Below the pieces are notes generated by a model that had not been told where the DNA came from, did no database searches, and worked only from the letters and a program-made list of their open reading frames with translations. 27,283 nucleotides of DNA. Origin: Ectocarpus siliculosus. Lineage: Eukaryota > Sar > Phaeophyceae > Ectocarpales > Ectocarpaceae. The stretch lies in NCBI GenBank assembly GCA_000310025.1, contig FN649727.1, positions 1,137,056-1,164,338 of the forward strand, in the 5' to 3' direction. The first letter of the stretch is position 1, and every line of letters begins with the position of its first letter. Shown here in pieces: positions 5,334-13,997 of this stretch. Made by a program: the position numbers and the translations under genes.

Positions 5334-8205
5334 TTAGCCCTCCGCTATCTCTTGGTCGTCGATGAACTGCTCGTCATCTTTGTGCTCCTCCGCAGCCGCG
5401 TCGACCGCGTTAACCGCCTCGCATTCGTCGATCCAGTCTGTGTACACGTCTATCGGCTCCGTCAAGTCTGAATCGGGACCACGAGTGACAATCGAGGGGT
5501 AGGGGAAAGGAAGTGTGGGGCAAAGGGTGCTCGCTCTCTGCTGTAAATTGCCTTGGAGAACGAAGCACAGCAGTAGGTTGCAAATGTTGCACATCCTGTA
5601 CAACTACAACTAATGACTAAATAAGTTTGTTGTTTGCCCGACAACTACCGGCTAGTTGTTCGTAAATGACTAGATACGCACGAGTCTGGAAGGCTAGTCG
5701 TCTGTATGCGACTAGTTACGCACGATCCCGGAAGAGTAGTCGTCTGCAGGCGACTAGTTGCGTTTGCTCCTGGAACAGTAGTCGTATGCAGGCGACTAGT
5801 TACGCACGAGTCTGGAAGGTTAGTCGTCTGCAGGTGACTAGTTGACGGGCAGGTGTCAATGTAGAACAATTACAATTCGTTAGTCGCCCGGGTACTTGTC
5901 AACAACAGACCCGTGTCAACAACAGATTAATTCAGGCTAGGGGCCGTTGTTGGCTGAGACGAGCTGACGCACTCACACACATCAAAACACACACACACAC
6001 ATAATAAACCACCACACCCTGTACAACTACAACTAATAACAAAGTTAGTTGTTTGCCAGACAACTACAGGCTAGTTGTTCGTAAATGACTAGTTACGCAC
6101 GAGTCTGGAAGGTTAGTCGTCTGCAGGCCACTAATTACGCACGATCCCGGAAGAGTAGTCGTCTGCAGGCGACTAGTTGCGTACAATCCTCGAAGAATAG
6201 TTGTCCTGCAAACAACTACCAACTAACGTAGTTGTACAGAGTGTGAAATGTTGCCATCACTGACGGGCGCGCGTGTGTTGAAATAGTAACCGTATGCAGA
6301 TGCTGTTGTTTCGAAGCGAAACCTGTCAAAAGCAACACTTAGGTGGTAAGTGGTGTGTCTGGCTCCGCTTTGGAACGTATGCACACGACAGCGGTGTGTG
6401 GCTGGGGCTAATTCAACTGGTGCAAGTGCGGTAGACACCGCTGCCACTCACAGTTGATTGTCATTTCGTAGTTCACGTCGCACATCCGGCACAGTAGCCG
6501 CGCCGTCTTTTCCTTCTTGTTCCTGCCCATCCGCCACCATCGGATGATCGCCACCGCAGCGGTCGCCAGAGCACACGGGAGCAGCACAACAGCAACACCA
6601 ACCAGGGACAAAAAAAGAGCAAGAAACAAATTATAGGATTAGCTGGGGTTCCAGTATCGCCCATGAATTCATCAGCAACACCTAGCACCAATCAGCCGAA
6701 TGGTGCTCCGAGGGTTGCCATGAAGGTGTTCCCGCGTAGTTTTTTGTGCTAGCAGTGATCGGTCAAAGCTTCGGCCGCGGTGGAAACAATGTCATACCGC
6801 CTCTGCGCTCACAGGAGCGTCTTGTCTTGGCCAACCAAACGTGTGGCATCGCACACCTCCACCACAATGTGATATGGACAGCAGTAGTTGGTTTCGGAAT
6901 GTGTGCGCCAACATGACATGTTTGCATGCAGCTGTTCGGTGAGCGCGTGCTCAGCTGGCTCGCTTGCCTACGCATGCATACGACGTGCGTTGTAACGTGA
7001 AGCACGCCATAACAGCAAGGACTCTACTCCGTATAGGGCGGCACCCCATAAAGTGGGTGCGATGTCTGTCTGTACAATGTATTCATCTAATCTGTTTTGG
7101 GCGCCAGTCTAAGATCATGCGGTGCGTATGAAGCACCAGCCGGGGTCGCACACGAGTAATGAAACAACAACTGTTGCTTATTTCTTATTTCCCCGCCATT
7201 TGCTGCTGCCTGTGGTGCTTGCCTTTCCATGTTTTACAACGCGAGAAGGTTTCAGCTATTCAGCAAGCAGCTCCTTCCCCTCTCCCGGTGCACTACTCGC
7301 GACTATTTAGTGAAGCAGTAGCGCTCCACCTCAGATTGCGATTTTCTAGGTTCAAACCCGCACCCTCGAGACTCTGCAACCATGGCCGCCACCGCCTGTG
7401 AAGAAAAACATTGATCGGTTCGTCCACTTGTTCTTGGTGAGGTTCGTCGAGGCGCCGGCCGGCACAGGCGCCTCGATCTGGCACACTACGCCGCGCCCAG
7501 GCACCACACAATATCCGCCCCCGGTATACACCACGTGCACCACTGAAAAAAGAAGCTGGTGCCCCCAGTGGCCAGATTGTGGTCATGCATTAGGCACGTA
7601 GACACCTGCTTTGTAGCTCAAGACCAAAATGGAATTAAAAAATAATAGCCACGGATTCGTAATCCCCACCCCAAAATTACCTTAACCTGAAAATTTCAGA
7701 TCGATCTGACCACTTTTGAAAAGCGGGGATTTTTCGGGACCATCCCCGGGGTTTTGCGTTTTTCGAATTCCCTGGGTAAAAAATAGTATAGCAACATCGC
7801 GACGTGCCGGTCTGCTGATCGCCTGCTGAGACATGAATGTACCTTGTAGGCGACATGACAGGAGATACCACACGCCACCCCCTGGACCGATTTTCAAAGC
7901 TCGATTACTCCACGACGAAGAGGATGCCGAAATCAAATGATGCGTTTTCGGAATGTTTTCGACGAGACGGTTCCGACGCCGGTATTTTCGGCACCGTCGC
8001 TGCTTTTCCTGCCGAGTAGTTTGAGCTTTGAAAATGCGTCCAGGGGGTGACACGATACGCAACCAATAACCAACGGCATGTAGTCTACTCACATGGTGCA
8101 CTCCACCACCTTGTCGTGGTTGCAGAAGGGGCACTTGAACACCTTGTCGAGCGTGGTATTCTTCTTCACCACGATCTTCTTCGTGCTCTTCTTTCGCCGC
8201 CCCAT
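5334..8205 (-). CDS. ELOF1: Transcription elongation factor 1 homolog (ELOF1/Elf1)
   Basis: Small zinc-ribbon factor that travels with elongating RNA polymerase II in the nucleus and, in yeast and human, also acts in transcription-coupled repair. Three exons: 8205-8093, 6522-6452 and 5467-5334, ending in TAA. Both donors are GTGAGT, both acceptors are CAG, and the phases (2, then 1) join cleanly into 105 residues; the human protein has 83. The N-terminus is the family's basic tail (MGRRKKSTKK). Four zinc ligands are present as CPFC (C25, C28) and CRMC (C49, C52). The family signature follows: YLTEPIDVYTDWIDECE at residues 62-78. The C-terminal 27 residues are an acidic tail (EEHKDDEQFIDD), as in several fungal and plant homologs. 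The start is fixed by the conserved MGRRK and by A at -3 and G at +4. Introns are 1570 and 984 bp and both carry mobile-element-like repeats. The gene is head to head with PHB1. Confidence 0.96.
5694..5850. repeat. Tandem 42 bp hairpin repeat, cluster 1
   Basis: About four head-to-tail copies of a 42 bp unit. Each contains the palindrome TAGTCG, an 8-base loop (TCTGCAGG in most copies), then CGACTA, followed by a spacer like GTTACGCACGAGTCTGGAAG. Every unit can fold into a short stem-loop. The unit is a multiple of three, so the array translates into a 14-residue periodic peptide, but this is a by-product of the repeat. Confidence 0.85.
5981..6001. repeat. AC dinucleotide microsatellite
   Basis: A short run of alternating A and C between the two hairpin clusters, within ELOF1 intron 2. 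Confidence 0.8.
6044..6217. repeat. Tandem hairpin repeat, cluster 2
   Basis: Second cluster of the same hairpin units. It is bracketed by related stem-loops of the form TAGTTGT-N7-ACAACTA near each end (around 6046-6066 and 6198-6218). The entry sequence, including GGCTAGTTGTTCGTAAATGA, matches the start of cluster 1, showing that the two clusters are copies of one parental element. Confidence 0.8.
7876..8049. mobile_element. MITE-like element with 35 bp inverted ends, in ELOF1 intron 1
   Basis: The left end (7876-7910) begins CACCCCCTGGAC and continues with ATTTTCAAAGCTC. The right end (8014-8049), reverse-complemented, begins with the same 12 bases and the same second block, with differences only in two short gaps. 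The enclosed sequence of about 100 bp has no coding potential. ACACG occurs at 7870-7874 and 8050-8054, one base off the left end, and may be a 5 bp target-site duplication. It lies 43 bp inside the donor of ELOF1 intron 1. Confidence 0.6.
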
Positions 8206-8842: not shown

Positions 8843-11800
8843 ATGGCGGAGAAGTTGCTGCAAAATGTGTCCCGGCTAGGTGGCGTGGTGGCGATAGCGG
8901 CGGCGACGTGAGTGTTGGTCGGAAGCAAGGTGTTGGTGTGTTATGGGGGGGGTTGGTTCTGCGTATGTACGAGGCAGACCCAGCGGCTCTGTGTTAGCTC
9001 CTCGTTGACTCACGGGCGTACAACATTGCAACTAAATCGACGATAGCAATGCACAGATAACAGCTAACCAGCCGAGGAACGAAACGGATAGTTCGGTGTG
9101 AAGGCATCCGCGTTCGGTCTGTCCACATCCCACTGGGATACTGGTATACTCCCCTTTCCTAAACATGTAATTTAATGGTTTTTGACGCGTGTAAAGGCTG
9201 TCTATTCCTGGCCGTCGTCGGGGAGCAATGCCCGTGGCCCCTTGCGAGTACAGCCCGTGGCCCCTTGCGAGTACAGCAGTTTAGTTTATCACCCGCCCCC
9301 TCCTGAGTCGTGAGTGGATCGGCCCAGCAACGATGCATTGCTTTGCTACGACACGCCTTGATAGCCAAGGTATTACGAAAGCATAAAATTACACTTGGTT
9401 GTGTAGGGTTCGAGAGAAGCTCAGATCCCTTGGTTCTTCTACTGCGGTTTACAAGTACTTCATACTGCGCGTCAAGTGTTGGATCAGTATGGACAATATG
9501 AAGGCTGGGTAGAGAGATCGGAACGGTTATTAATGTGAAGACAACAACAACAACAAACTACGCAGTAGCACTCCCGGGCCGTTATTGCAAGCAAACTCCC
9601 GCCTTGCCACTGTTTGGATGGCGGCGAGCCAAGTCACCCGTTGTATCCGACAAGCCTGCAGTAGTGCTTGGCCGCCCCACCACACACGTTGCGCCGACCT
9701 GAAGAGTCGTCTTGGACTGATCGTAGCGTTGTGTTCGCGATGAAAACGACCTTTCATGTCTTTTTTGAAAATGTAGATACCATCACCAAAAGACTTCAGC
9801 AGTACCAAGAAAACACCAGCTGGGACATGATGGTAATTTTTTGCAATATCGGTGAGGGTGGGGGGGGATGCAGTTGCTATGTATGCCACTCCTGAGATCT
9901 AGGAGCTGTGATGTTCAATGAACGCTGACGCTCCCACCCCCTCGCAACGGTTCTCTCGGAGATTTTGGACATGTCGAAGAATATGCATCAAGTACGTAAC
10001 GAAGTAGGAGATATCATCAGCGTTTACAGGCGGCAGAGGTGATCTTTGCCGTCCTTCTCAGCGAGAATCATGTCACATGCCACCATAGCACTTTCACAAC
10101 CGCCAGCAACGGTCGACACGCACGCGAAAAACTACTGCTGCGGGGAACGTTGCTGTGCGTTTAGATTATCGTCGACATGCTGACCAATGACAGACGCCAG
10201 TCTCCTACGCTTAGAGGCCGCAGTTGACGTCCACGCCCTTTCATTTATCTTGTCTGCTTTCCGACAGGGGGGGTCGTTATGTGTTTTTGATCCTCACACA
10301 CCCAACCCCAGCGCAATCCGCCGAAACGCCAGCGCTGTCGCTGCTGGTTCCATCGTATACATGAGAGCCAAACAAACAGCAGCAGCGTCAAGCCCTGGAG
10401 TACTAGTTGCTGCTGCCCATCTCGCCCTTTCACCTACACCGAGATATGGCTGGCCTGTAGTGCATGCACCAGAACCTTCGTCAATAACAGTTCACGCCCA
10501 TCACGATGTACCACAGGCCCTTATATCTCGTCTGGACTCGTATCAGACTTGAGCCGCAGTTCGCTCGCAAACGACAACCGCCGCACTCGAACAACCGCTG
10601 TACGAAGAAGCTCTGAACGGCAAATTGGCAAGGGTGTGCGGACATGCGATCTACTCGCTTTCCCGAACTCGTTTTCCCTCTCTCCACCCCTCCTCCTTCC
10701 CAAAATAACTATGGAAGCATCACCGAACGTCAACGTCTACAAATGTTTTTTACAAATCTACCGAAGCCAACAACATTGCGCACATCACGTGACACGCATT
10801 TAGCTCCCCTGACACCGAATCGATTGCCTAGTTGACAGCTCTGGTTCGTTCCCATGCCTTGGTCGAAAAAAAACAAAAACTGATGCAACAGAGAGATGTG
10901 CCTCTTCAACGTGGACGGCGGGCAGCGGGCAGTCATCTTCGACAGATTTCAGGGAGTCAAAGAGGCGGTCGTGGGGGAGGGGACGCACTTCATGATCCCC
11001 ATCGTGCAGAAGCCTATCATCATCGACGTGCGGGCCAGGCCGCGCACGATCAACTCCATCACGGGGACGAAGGACCTGCAGATGGCCAACATCTCTCTAA
11101 GGTGTGTGTGTATGTGCGTATGGTATGGGAGATTGTTGGTATTATAAGACTCAGATTGTCAACGGAAACACATTAAGTACATTTCTCTGATGTGTGGGGG
11201 TGCGATGACTCGCAATCTTACGGTGGATGACCAACATTTCACTACCGTGTGTGGGGGGCGGGGTGGGTACAGAGAGATCTGGATTTGACGCCGCGACGAC
11301 ATGAGCGCTCGAAAGCCGTGTTCGCATTGTTTAAGGATTTATGTTTCATGCGATTCCAGAACCTAATCCTAATGCTAACCCTAATCCTAATACTAATACC
11401 AATCCCAATGCTAATGCTAATGCTAATGCTAATCCTAATCCTAATCCTAATCCCATTGCTTATCCTAATCCTAATCCTAATCGTGGAGGGAAGGAACGAT
11501 CACTTCCTTATCCCAGCTCTCGCACGCCGCTGGGGGTACATCAGAGTATATGGTTGCGAGATTAGAAGGTTTGACGAAAGGATAAGAGTGGAGCAAAGAA
11601 TCACAACGTGTGGGTGGCGTCGCGAAGAGACCCACTGCTGTTATCTACTGCATGGTACAGAGTCTTTGAAATCTCTCGACGTTGAGCGGTGTAGGCTTTG
11701 GCACTTGCTCCGTCTCTCGGATGAGCTCTTGGTGTGGCATTTAGCGGAGGACAATCGTTCGACTTATGATCACCTGTGACGTCATCTGACGCACGCTACG

Positions 11801-13997
11801 AAGCCATCGTGTTATGGATACCAACATGGCTGCGCGGGAATCGGTGCGTCAAGAGCGGCAGCAGAAAGCTGCAGAGGCCACCGAGGCCACCGCCGAGAAG
11901 GCCACCAAACTGCGGGAACCAGCGCGCCACCGCCACTGATCGCCCCCAACAGCTGCGCCGAAGAGGCATCTGCCATACGTAGAGCGCCAGCAGCGAGACA
12001 GGCAAACAGCCATCGACCTGCCGGAACGAGAGGAGCAAGCTGCAATCACCGAGCGTTACAACGCCACCGACGAGCGCGACACGCCGTCGCACTCGGTGGA
12101 CGGCGTATCTCGGTCGTGGATGTCGATGTCGTTGTTCCGTTCAGTGATGGCGGCTTGCTCCTCTCGTTGCGGCAGGTCGATGGCTGTTTGCCTGTCTCGC
12201 TACTGGCGCTCTAGGTAGGGCGGCTGCCTCTTTGGCGCAGCTTTTGGAGGCGATTGGTGGCCGTGGCGCGCTGGTTCCCGCAGTTTGGTGGCCTTCTCGG
12301 CGGTGGCCTAGGCAGCTTTGTCTGCTGCCGCTCTTGATTCACCAACTCCCGCGCATGCTGTGCGGCGGCGTCGCTCTCCGGTCGTATTACCACCCGCACT
12401 GATTTTTTTATATATTGCATCCCACACCTCGTCCGGTTCTCTCCAACCCCCCGTTGCCCCCTGTGTCCCCAAAACCCCCTCTCACGCATTAAACCCCCTG
12501 TGTCCCGCTGTTGGTTGTTGTCTTTGGGGGTGGTGGTTAGGGTACTGTCTCGGCCGTTGGAGTCGGAGCTGCCCCGCATCTACCAGGAGCTGGGGACTGA
12601 TTTCGACGACAGAGTCTTGCCGTCGCTGGGAAATGAGGTACGGCGGGCCCGCAGGATACCTCTGAGGAGGAGGGGTTGGTCGGGGTCGGGGTCTTGGAAG
12701 ACGCCGCGGGCTGTTGTGTTTGTACCTTTATACCACAGATTATGTAGGCGTCCCTACCAAATCCGGGACGGAGAATGAACGGGTTTCCACCAAACAGGCC
12801 CGTGAGCAGGTCGAAAAGTACGCAACACGTCATGGTCCGTGATGCGTGTGACGTTACGCATCAAAACAGGTGCTCAAGGCAGTCGTGGCCAAGTACAACG
12901 CTGAGGAGCTGCTGAGCAAGCGTGAGTCGGTCAGCACCCGCATCCGGGACGAGCTGACCCACCGCGCCAAGCAGTTCCACCTCATCATGGACGACGTGTC
13001 CATCACCCACCTCACCTTCGGCCACGAGTTCACCAAGGCCATCGAGAACAAGCAGGTGTGTTGTTGTCTTCACATTAAGAAACCGTTCCGTGTTGTTGTC
13101 TTCACATTGAGAAACCGTTCCGGTCTCCGCTCGGTACCTTGTAATGTCCGTCGGTACTGGTCCAACTGACGCGGACACCTTCGGTGGTCACAAGCCGACT
13201 TGCCCCAACAAAGGGGGTACACCTTTCTAGAAAAAAAAAAAAAAATGGACTCCAGAATAGATAGTCCTCCAAGACGCCAAACGAGTATTCGAGATAAACT
13301 ACGACCGTGTAACGTAAGGCTGTTGGATAAGATGTTGCTTTGCATCTGTCAGACATTCTTTTTCGTTTCCATGATGTTTTCATTGTGCGCGAATTGTCTT
13401 GGTACAAGGCGGGGGGGAGGGGAGGAGAGGTGTAAGTGTAGGTGGCTTCTTGTGCCACCGCCATTCACTGTGTATCTTGAAATTGCTATCAGAGATTTGA
13501 GCTGTCACACATACAATTCAAGCTGCTACAATTCAACGTGCGCAGCAATGCGCTTCTCATCCTCGACCAGCATTGCCCCGTCCGTACCCGTAGACAATTT
13601 CATGATGCTTGTCACACAAGAACGACCTATTAAGCTGCTGCTGCTGCTGCTGCTAGAATCCAACAAAACACAAGGGCAAAACTAAAGCTGCATCGTACGA
13701 TCCAACGTTCACGCGCAACCAACCCCGCAGGTGGCGCAACAAGAGGCCGAGCGGCAGGTGTACGTGGTCGCGCTGTCCGACCAGGAGAGGCTGGCCGCCA
13801 TCATCCGCGCGGAGGGAGAGGCGGAGGCCGCCGAGCTGATCTCGGCCGCCCTGAAGGAGAGCGGCATCGGGCTCATCGAGGTGCGGCGCATCGACACCGC
13901 CAAGGAGATCGCCCTCACCCTCGCCACCTCGAGAAACATCACCTACCTGCCAACAGGGGGCGGGTCCAACATGCTCCTGGGTCTCAACACGGCTTAA
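8843..13997 (+). CDS. PHB1: Prohibitin-1
   Basis: Mitochondrial inner-membrane protein that forms ring complexes with PHB2. The rings act as scaffold for cristae and the m-AAA protease. Five exons: 8843-8907, 10892-11101, 12541-12637, 12870-13055 and 13731-13997 (TAA). All introns are GT-AG and the phases join to 274 residues (human 272). Exon 1 gives the short N-terminal anchor with the hydrophobic [10 protein letters not shown]. Exon 2 opens the SPFH/prohibitin domain ([28 protein letters not shown]). Exon 3 gives [19 protein letters not shown]. Exon 4 has [19 protein letters not shown], and exon 5 VAQQEAER and [14 protein letters not shown] and the C-terminus identify PHB1 rather than PHB2. 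The coiled-coil stretch after VAQQEAER reads [17 protein letters not shown], less charged than in animal homologs. Introns are 1984, 1439, 232 and 675 bp. The 65-nt first exon sits 2 kb from the rest and is supported by its phase, its donor and the fit to the family N-terminus. Confidence 0.97.
9231..9276. repeat. Exact 23 bp tandem duplication in PHB1 intron 1
   Basis: Two identical adjacent copies of a 23 bp unit starting CCCGTGGCCCCTTGCGAG. Probably replication slippage; no function is suggested. Confidence 0.9.
11361..11482. repeat. Degenerate CCTAAT hexamer tract in PHB1 intron 2
   Basis: About 20 units of a 6 bp period, mostly CCTAAT with GCTAAT, ACTAAT and CCCTAA variants. On the other strand these are ATTAGG/TTAGGG-like, resembling degenerated telomere repeats. 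The tract lies 260 bp inside the intron and would translate as Asn-Pro/Asn-Ala repeats, but it is intronic. Confidence 0.85.
11831..12355. repeat. Large inverted repeat in PHB1 intron 2
   Basis: Arm 1 (about 11831-12080) and arm 2 (about 12107-12355) are reverse complements with scattered substitutions and a loop of about 25 bp. Long identical blocks include about 45 bp beginning GCCACCGCCGAGAAGGCC and about 31 bp beginning GCGAGACAGGCAAACAG. Both arms, read in the same direction of the unit, give related peptide fragments ([11 protein letters not shown] and [11 protein letters not shown]). The unit therefore looks like a decayed coding fragment that was duplicated in inverted orientation. 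Neither arm keeps a long open frame. Confidence 0.85.
13058..13121. repeat. 32 bp tandem duplication at the 5' end of PHB1 intron 4
   Basis: Two adjacent 32 bp copies starting GTGTTGTTGTCTTCACATT, differing at one base (AAGAAACC versus GAGAAACC). The first copy begins 2 bp after the exon 4 junction, so the donor abuts the repeat. The second copy runs on into the interspersed repeat ending near 13205. Confidence 0.85.
13090..13205 (+). repeat. Interspersed repeat copy 1 (PHB1 intron 4)
   Basis: Shares with copies at 19619-19746 and 24588-24667 the ordered blocks TTGTCTTCACATTGA, CCGTTCCGGTCTCCGCTC, AATGTCCGT and GTCCAACTGACG, then a block with GGTGGTC. No coding capacity. Probably a short non-autonomous mobile element; its superfamily is unknown. 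Confidence 0.7.

Follow-up and report, generated by a model that had tools for sequence, protein, structure and literature searches.

A family of short DNA transposons in Ectocarpus siliculosus that carries a hexamer of its ends in phased internal arrays

The subject of this analysis is a 656-bp DNA transposon in an intron of ELOF1 in the brown alga Ectocarpus siliculosus, together with the family to which it belongs. The copy lies in a stretch of 27,283 nucleotides (assembly GCA_000310025.1, contig FN649727.1, positions 1,137,056 to 1,164,338), which is called the window throughout. The closest described parallels are found among CACTA/EnSpm, hAT, KDZ and foldback elements. In passages of a study of soybean CACTA/EnSpm transposons, the Tgmt* elements are described as having a short terminal inverted repeat (TIR), direct and inverted subterminal motifs and 14 stem-loops, and the subterminal motifs of CACTA elements as cis-determinants that are bound by TNPA in En/Spm and that diverge between subfamilies (PMC2613891). 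The algal family resembles these elements (soybean Tgmt* and Tgm1, maize En/Spm) in its short TIR and its repeated subterminal motifs, to which a protein is predicted to bind in the algal case as well. According to the same passages, however, Tgmt* has CACTA ends and a 3-bp duplication, whereas the algal family has CACAC ends and 8 bp, and CACTA elements conserve the TIR while their motifs diverge, whereas in the algal family the inner hexamer of the TIR is itself the motif and both change together (PMC2613891). Membership in CACTA fails on the ends (CACAC) and on the duplication length (8 bp as opposed to 2-3 bp); in mechanism, CACTA elements are the closest precedent.

Among hAT elements, Ac carries a subterminal motif, and the ends follow the pattern YARNG, from which the algal ends depart. 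The likeness to hAT lies in the 8-bp duplications and in the subterminal repeats, which, as passages on Kat1 indicate, matter for transposase action in hAT elements (PMC4763223). Within the KDZ group (Zisupton, Dileera, Kyakuja), 8-bp duplications are given for Zisupton and a Dileera element and 5'-CA..TG-3' ends for Kyakuja in passages of PMC12730594 and PMC12477816; the latter also attributes 1.8% of the Ectocarpus genome to giant KDZ elements and lists 51 unclassified DNA families. With an 8-bp duplication (7 bp in Kyakuja) and CA..TG ends taken as the KDZ criterion, the algal family agrees in both respects, with 8-bp duplications and CACA...TGTG ends. Unlike in KDZ elements, no KDZ transposase is tied to the algal ends; the profiles PF18758 and PF18803 found no match in the Ectocarpus genome, but the control genomes were silent too. 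Foldback elements are also internally repetitive, with tandem units near their ends, but their long terminal arrays are inverted. Membership in that group was rejected, as the arrays are direct both in the window element, where the two share one orientation, and in the family member L022 (fetched loci are given as L numbers and contigs as C numbers).

Mobility of the family

The window element occupies positions 5590-6245, with inverted ends that match at 16 of 18 bases and an exact flanking duplication, AAATGTTG. The whole window contains 6,260 exact 8-bp direct-repeat pairs lying 60-3000 bp apart, and only the AAATGTTG pair encloses inverted termini with more than 13 of 18 bases matched. The genome searched (189 Mb, 492 contigs) contains at least 78 matches to the window element, and 106 termini with at most one mismatch from the 16-mer CACACCCTGTACAACT, compared to 6 for the reversed control. 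The locus work is based on 100 listed termini out of these 106, of which 97 were fetched (C32, C36 and C56 were left out). Perfect 8-bp duplications flank 17 of the 40 end pairs in the fetched loci, a total that includes two false pairings (window 6013-6245 and L055 737-1569); when left flanks were compared with the right flanks of other elements, the count was 1 in 1,560. The target consensus is NAANNTTN; when the 17 perfect duplications are read on both strands, 32 of the 34 readings have A as their second base.

Four copies from a 1.7-kb subfamily (L020, L022, L023 and L028) are 99.1-99.7% identical, and occupy four different sites with four different duplications. Empty sites were searched for with the joined left and right flanks of 15 elements, all of the 17 except the window copy and L067; 40 of 2,549 candidates were scored. 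Continuous matches elsewhere across the joined flanks, representing paralogous empty sites, were detected for at least 4 of the 15 insertions (L020, L023, L024 and L033), with 100% identity over 140 bp spanning the junction in the case of L023. Given the ends, the duplications, the near-identical copies and the empty sites, this is therefore a family of DNA transposons that have been recently mobile, with 8-bp staggered insertion at NAANNTTN. Its members resemble miniature inverted-repeat transposable elements and are non-autonomous, with TIRs and constant-length duplications at many sites, precise empty sites, and no transposase inside among the proteins scanned. A first-pass annotation, made from the window alone, had suggested that the element may represent an undescribed family and had named a lack of other genomic copies with its ends as a refuting outcome; the termini and duplications counted above show that such copies exist. 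Viral contigs contain no match to the 42-bp unit described below or to the end pattern.

Two further observations concern individual loci. A 401-bp member with a perfect 8-bp duplication (L043, 1031-1431) contains two stretches that by eye resemble tRNA T-arms in opposite orientation; ARAGORN finds no tRNA in this locus. L050 and L051, about 69 kb apart on C16, are 77-89% alike in pieces over more than 5 kb, both inside and outside a CACACCCTGTACAACTAG terminus; they may stem from segmental duplication or be part of a larger mobile element.

Hexamers of the ends and arrays

Internal arrays are built from 42-bp units, each with a loop between two hexamer arms. Subfamily A combines the terminal repeat CACACCCTGTA-CAACTA with TAGTTG/CAACTA arms, and subfamily B combines CACACCCTGTA-CAAATA with TATTTG/CAAATA arms. 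The hexamer CAACTA or CAAATA is found in the arms and also makes up the inner portion of the TIR, and the window copy adds a further arm variant, TAGTCG/CGACTA, beside a CAACTA end. The coupling of end and array was tested only on loci fetched by the TIR pattern and not by similarity to the window element (L038 onward). All 10 CAAAT-type loci contain more CAAATA than CAACTA inside, and CAACTA is in the majority in 16 of the 25 CAACT-type loci, with a tie in seven and a contrary result in two (1 CAAATA against 0); by shuffling, less than one hexamer is expected per inner stretch. Four CAAAT-type loci (L043, L044, L046 and L047) failed the main-array unit scan and share short stretches of likeness at most, and still follow their TIR class. 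Counts were also made per end for 103 ends, one of which was too short and 23 of which have other hexamers; identical first 60 bases were counted once, L001-L008, L058 and L059 were left out, and CAGATA (L045) was counted with the CAAAT class. As for a third hexamer class, only three termini match CACACCCTGTACABBTA, a pattern that covers part of the possible hexamers. Elements of this kind are already known; what is new here is the coupling of the terminal hexamer with a phased array.

Units were extracted by their loop and spacer columns only, so that the arms are unselected. The scan yielded 385 units, 237 of them distinct, across 39 loci; of the 311 steps from one unit to the next, 291 measure exactly 42 bp. 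Since the DNA helix has approximately 10.5 bp per turn, 42 bp corresponds to four turns. The commonest right arms are CAACTA, which in distinct units is paired with the left arms TAGGTG (42), TAGTTG (29) and TAGTCA (28), and CAAATA, which is paired with TATTTG in 25 distinct units. The unit initially proposed, TAGTCG-N8-CGACTA, is exact in four of the five window-copy units that passed the scan, but across the family it is the hexamer CAACTA or CAAATA that persists, and the left arm varies. The hexamer and the 42-bp spacing are better conserved than the stem.

These observations are probably best read as those of a non-autonomous cut-and-paste element whose hexamer, within the TIR as well as throughout the phased array, is bound by a trans-acting transposase or accessory protein. 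Elements with CACACCCTGTA... ends insert at NAANNTTN sites through a staggered cut of 8 bp, and a transposase encoded elsewhere in the genome would move them in trans. This transposase, or an accessory protein encoded by the same element, would bind CAACTA (CAAATA in subfamily B), a hexamer that recurs as loose inverted pairs every four turns and would thus offer a row of sites on one face of the DNA. Such an array may raise the local concentration of the protein and aid the pairing of the ends, as TNPA sites do in CACTA elements.

Several points weigh against this reading. Neither an autonomous element nor a binding protein was found, so that both the movement in trans and the binding are inferences, and the 42-bp period could be kept by tandem duplication alone. 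Duplications are not perfect in 23 of the 40 end pairs, comprising the two false pairings, four pairs with one mismatch and 17 with more. With regard to the coupling, six of the seven tied CAACT-type loci contain no motif at all, two of 25 run contrary, five of the 16 supporting loci rest on one or two occurrences of CAACTA, and two CAAAT-type loci rest on two or three; in the window copy, the arm hexamer CGACTA is one letter off the end hexamer. Moreover, within subfamily B, L038-L042 and L045 are sister copies or close relatives, and as most subfamily-B loci are related, the hexamer switch may represent few events or a single one.

The kinship of these loci is also what an account by passive satellite expansion would build on. 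In that account, slippage or unequal exchange enlarged the arrays from a duplicated terminus, and hexamer and period reflect descent and homogenisation in place of binding. Unit number does differ among copies, long elements do contain a copied left end, and one spacer is common to four subfamily-B loci, so that the switch may be a single event. It is nonetheless an unlikely explanation, given that the hexamer, the 42-bp phase and a loop near CTGCAG are kept while the remainder of the spacer differs by eye between A and B units, that the letter changed in the TIR is also the one changed in both arms, and that the four loci not belonging to the main B array family also match their TIR class.

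It is less likely still that the hairpins themselves are functional, whether through recognition of a cruciform or single-strand structure during transposition or by giving rise to small RNAs from RNA hairpins. Covariation against shuffles, which ignore kinship between units, is strong at stem pair 3, where 213 of the 237 distinct units are Watson-Crick paired (shuffle mean 150, maximum 167), and modest at stem pair 5, with 174 of 237 (mean 151, maximum 164). Mean pairing is 4.71 of 6 in the true register as opposed to 0.70-2.19 in slid registers, and the RNA of the subfamily-B copy L042 folds far beyond its shuffles (z -10.65). However, stem pairs 1, 2 and 4 show no excess of pairing over shuffles in the same units, stem pair 6 lies inside the shuffle range (174 of 237; mean 167, maximum 177), and in the youngest subfamily, with its near-identical copies, stems mainly retain 4-5 of 6 pairs. 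RNA folding scores are modest for L020 (485 nt, z -2.30) and for the window element (z -2.55; one of 20 shuffles folds equally well), and these folds mainly join distant stretches, with a few local hairpins in the window element; they do not support the chain of small hairpins that the first-pass annotation had expected in the ELOF1 pre-mRNA.

Finally, the notion that no transposon exists, only chance inverted ends around a host tandem repeat, draws on nothing but the age of the window copy (TIR 16/18; closest genome matches of 85-91% over 159-329 bp, apart from 58 bp of spacer matched at 97%) and is refuted by the multi-copy family, the duplications, the near-identical copies and the empty sites.

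The copy in the ELOF1 intron

The features of the window copy and its host intron are collected in Table 1. The coordinates, ends and duplication of the transposon were correct as first annotated, as was its position within ELOF1: the exons flanking the intron join in frame, and the joined fragment matches PF05129 (5.4e-14). No open reading frame of at least 120 amino acids overlaps the element. Its interior had been described as almost entirely array, which is an overstatement; there are indeed two 42-bp arrays, but together they account for about 300 of the 656 bp, and the remainder consists of ends, subterminal hairpins and a 169-bp spacer. This spacer also resembles, in part and by eye, the spacer of the 1.7-kb subfamily. 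Because the best matches of the window copy reach only 85-91%, and no near-identical sister was seen among the genome matches, it is older than the young members of the family. The ELOF1 copy is an old intron passenger, with no sign of a role there, although none was specifically tested for.

A second left terminus within the element had been taken as evidence of growth by internal duplication. The terminus is present, but it does not date from this copy. L009, which lies on a different contig, is built in the same way, with an outer left end, an array, a spacer of partial similarity, an inner left end that is degraded, a further array and a right end. Its inner left end is preceded by a CA-rich edge like that of the window copy; L009 has no clean duplication. 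The 1.7-kb subfamily retains a degenerate inner left end. Since both also carry a second left end, the duplication is older than the window insertion. In the short complete elements L013 (448 bp) and L036 (316 bp), a single left end, a single array and a single right end lie between perfect duplications, and the long form seems to have arisen when two element parts fused, probably before the family spread.

Table 1. Positions of the transposon, its parts and the ELOF1 features in the window
Feature	Positions	Strand	Remarks
Left target-site duplication AAATGTTG, 8 bp	5582..5589	.	fits family consensus NAANNTTN
Outer left terminal inverted repeat, CACATCCTGTA-CAACTAC	5590..5607	+	
Left subterminal hairpin	5629..5647	+	inverted partner is right hairpin 6198-6216, 89% of 19
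Array 1, 42-bp units	5668..5843	+	4.2 copies; arms mainly TAGTCG-N8-CGACTA
Spacer, 169 bp	5844..6012	.	partial likeness to L009 spacer (97% over 58 bp)
Inner left terminus	6013..6030	+	perfect match to family 18-mer; degraded counterpart in L009
Inner left subterminal hairpin	6046..6066	+	inverted partner is 6198-6218, 90% of 21
Array 2, 42-bp units	6088..6197	+	tandem-repeat tract 6088-6210, 2.9 copies
Right subterminal hairpin TAGTTGTCCTGCAAACAACTA	6198..6218	-	
Right terminal inverted repeat	6228..6245	-	
Right target-site duplication AAATGTTG, 8 bp	6246..6253	.	
ELOF1 last coding exon, up to stop codon	5334..5467	-	
ELOF1 intron holding the element, 985 nt	5468..6452	-	GTGAGT...CAG
ELOF1 upstream exon, part used in Pfam search	6453..6515	-	

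Elsewhere in the window, an interstitial telomere-like array (CCTAAT, or ATTAGG, x20) is found at 11362-11482, and a 32-bp unit forms a tandem pair with a 96% match at 13058-13122. The EsV-1-7 repeat family is large in this genome, with 880 candidates and 150 scored matches, and is absent from 14 control genomes; an expansion of the EsV-1-7 domain in brown algae is described in passages of PMC12477816.

Superfamily and candidate partners

No autonomous element sharing the ends of the family was found by transposase, structure or spacer searches. Among 31 hAT transposase matches, none was seen in an element with family ends, and two are within 10 kb of the 100 listed termini. Neither of these two appears to share an element with its terminus: near the match on C476, the terminus is part of a complete insertion that has a duplication to itself, and near that on C9, the terminus, 7.9 kb off, is a left end pointing away from the gene. 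The match on C476 (L058, 2683-4059) is a hAT-type open frame of 459 residues that stops about 0.6 kb before L022, one of the youngest insertions, with no shared ends seen. None of 45 MULE transposase matches was seen in an element with family ends, the nearest of the 100 listed termini being 19.7 kb away; the ends of the MULE elements themselves were not examined. In 25 of these 45, the match lies in an open frame of exactly 233 residues with near-equal scores (C1, C6, C8, C9, C16 and others), and this group is probably a recently active family.

By eye, no facing termini 3.5-150 kb apart were seen among the 100 listed. A Pfam scan of 48 proteins from long or unpaired loci, which does not cover every frame, gave only weak matches below the cut-off and no transposase; among these proteins, the interior frames of L022 (n=4) and L048 (n=2) gave no transposase match, those of L022 being weak and below the Pfam cut-off. 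A search with the spacer of the 1.7-kb subfamily returned 25 matches, all in family loci except for a 100-bp piece in C28 that adjoins a masked stretch, and the subfamily-B spacer returned four, all in known copies. The copy on C71 was rejected as a transposase carrier, as its DDE_1 gene belongs to a nested 4.2-kb pogo-like element flanked by TA. This nested element (L027 1214-2801 plus L080 1-2648; PF03184, 2.4e-18) has inverted ends of about 28 bp and lies inside a family array.

The TIR string was not found in the literature searched, which comprised neither supplements nor Repbase, and a catalogued consensus may exist. Searches on Zisupton/KDZ, brown-algal transposons, brown-algal MITEs and subterminal hairpin arrays yielded no paper that, by its title or the start of its abstract, describes the family. 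Assignment to KDZ is the leading option, though a tentative one; a lineage that has yet to be described comes somewhat behind it, and hAT or other superfamilies account for the rest.

It is conceivable, if doubtful, that the CACACCCTGTA ends and 8-bp NAANNTTN duplications mark an undescribed lineage with a built-in recognition code, in which transposase and sites change specificity together. If this is true, the hexamer would be repeated in up to some twenty units per element, spaced by exactly four helical turns, and new subfamilies would constitute mutually exclusive end-and-array types within one genome. The recognition of transposon ends has usually been solved protein by protein, while this genome may display the recognition word itself. 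With that word present at the end and phased inside, and with a one-letter difference between subfamilies in both places, whether a transposase and its sites evolve together would become directly testable from sequence. An apparent chain of hairpins can also be a row of half-sites, which calls for caution where hairpin elements are identified by palindromes alone.

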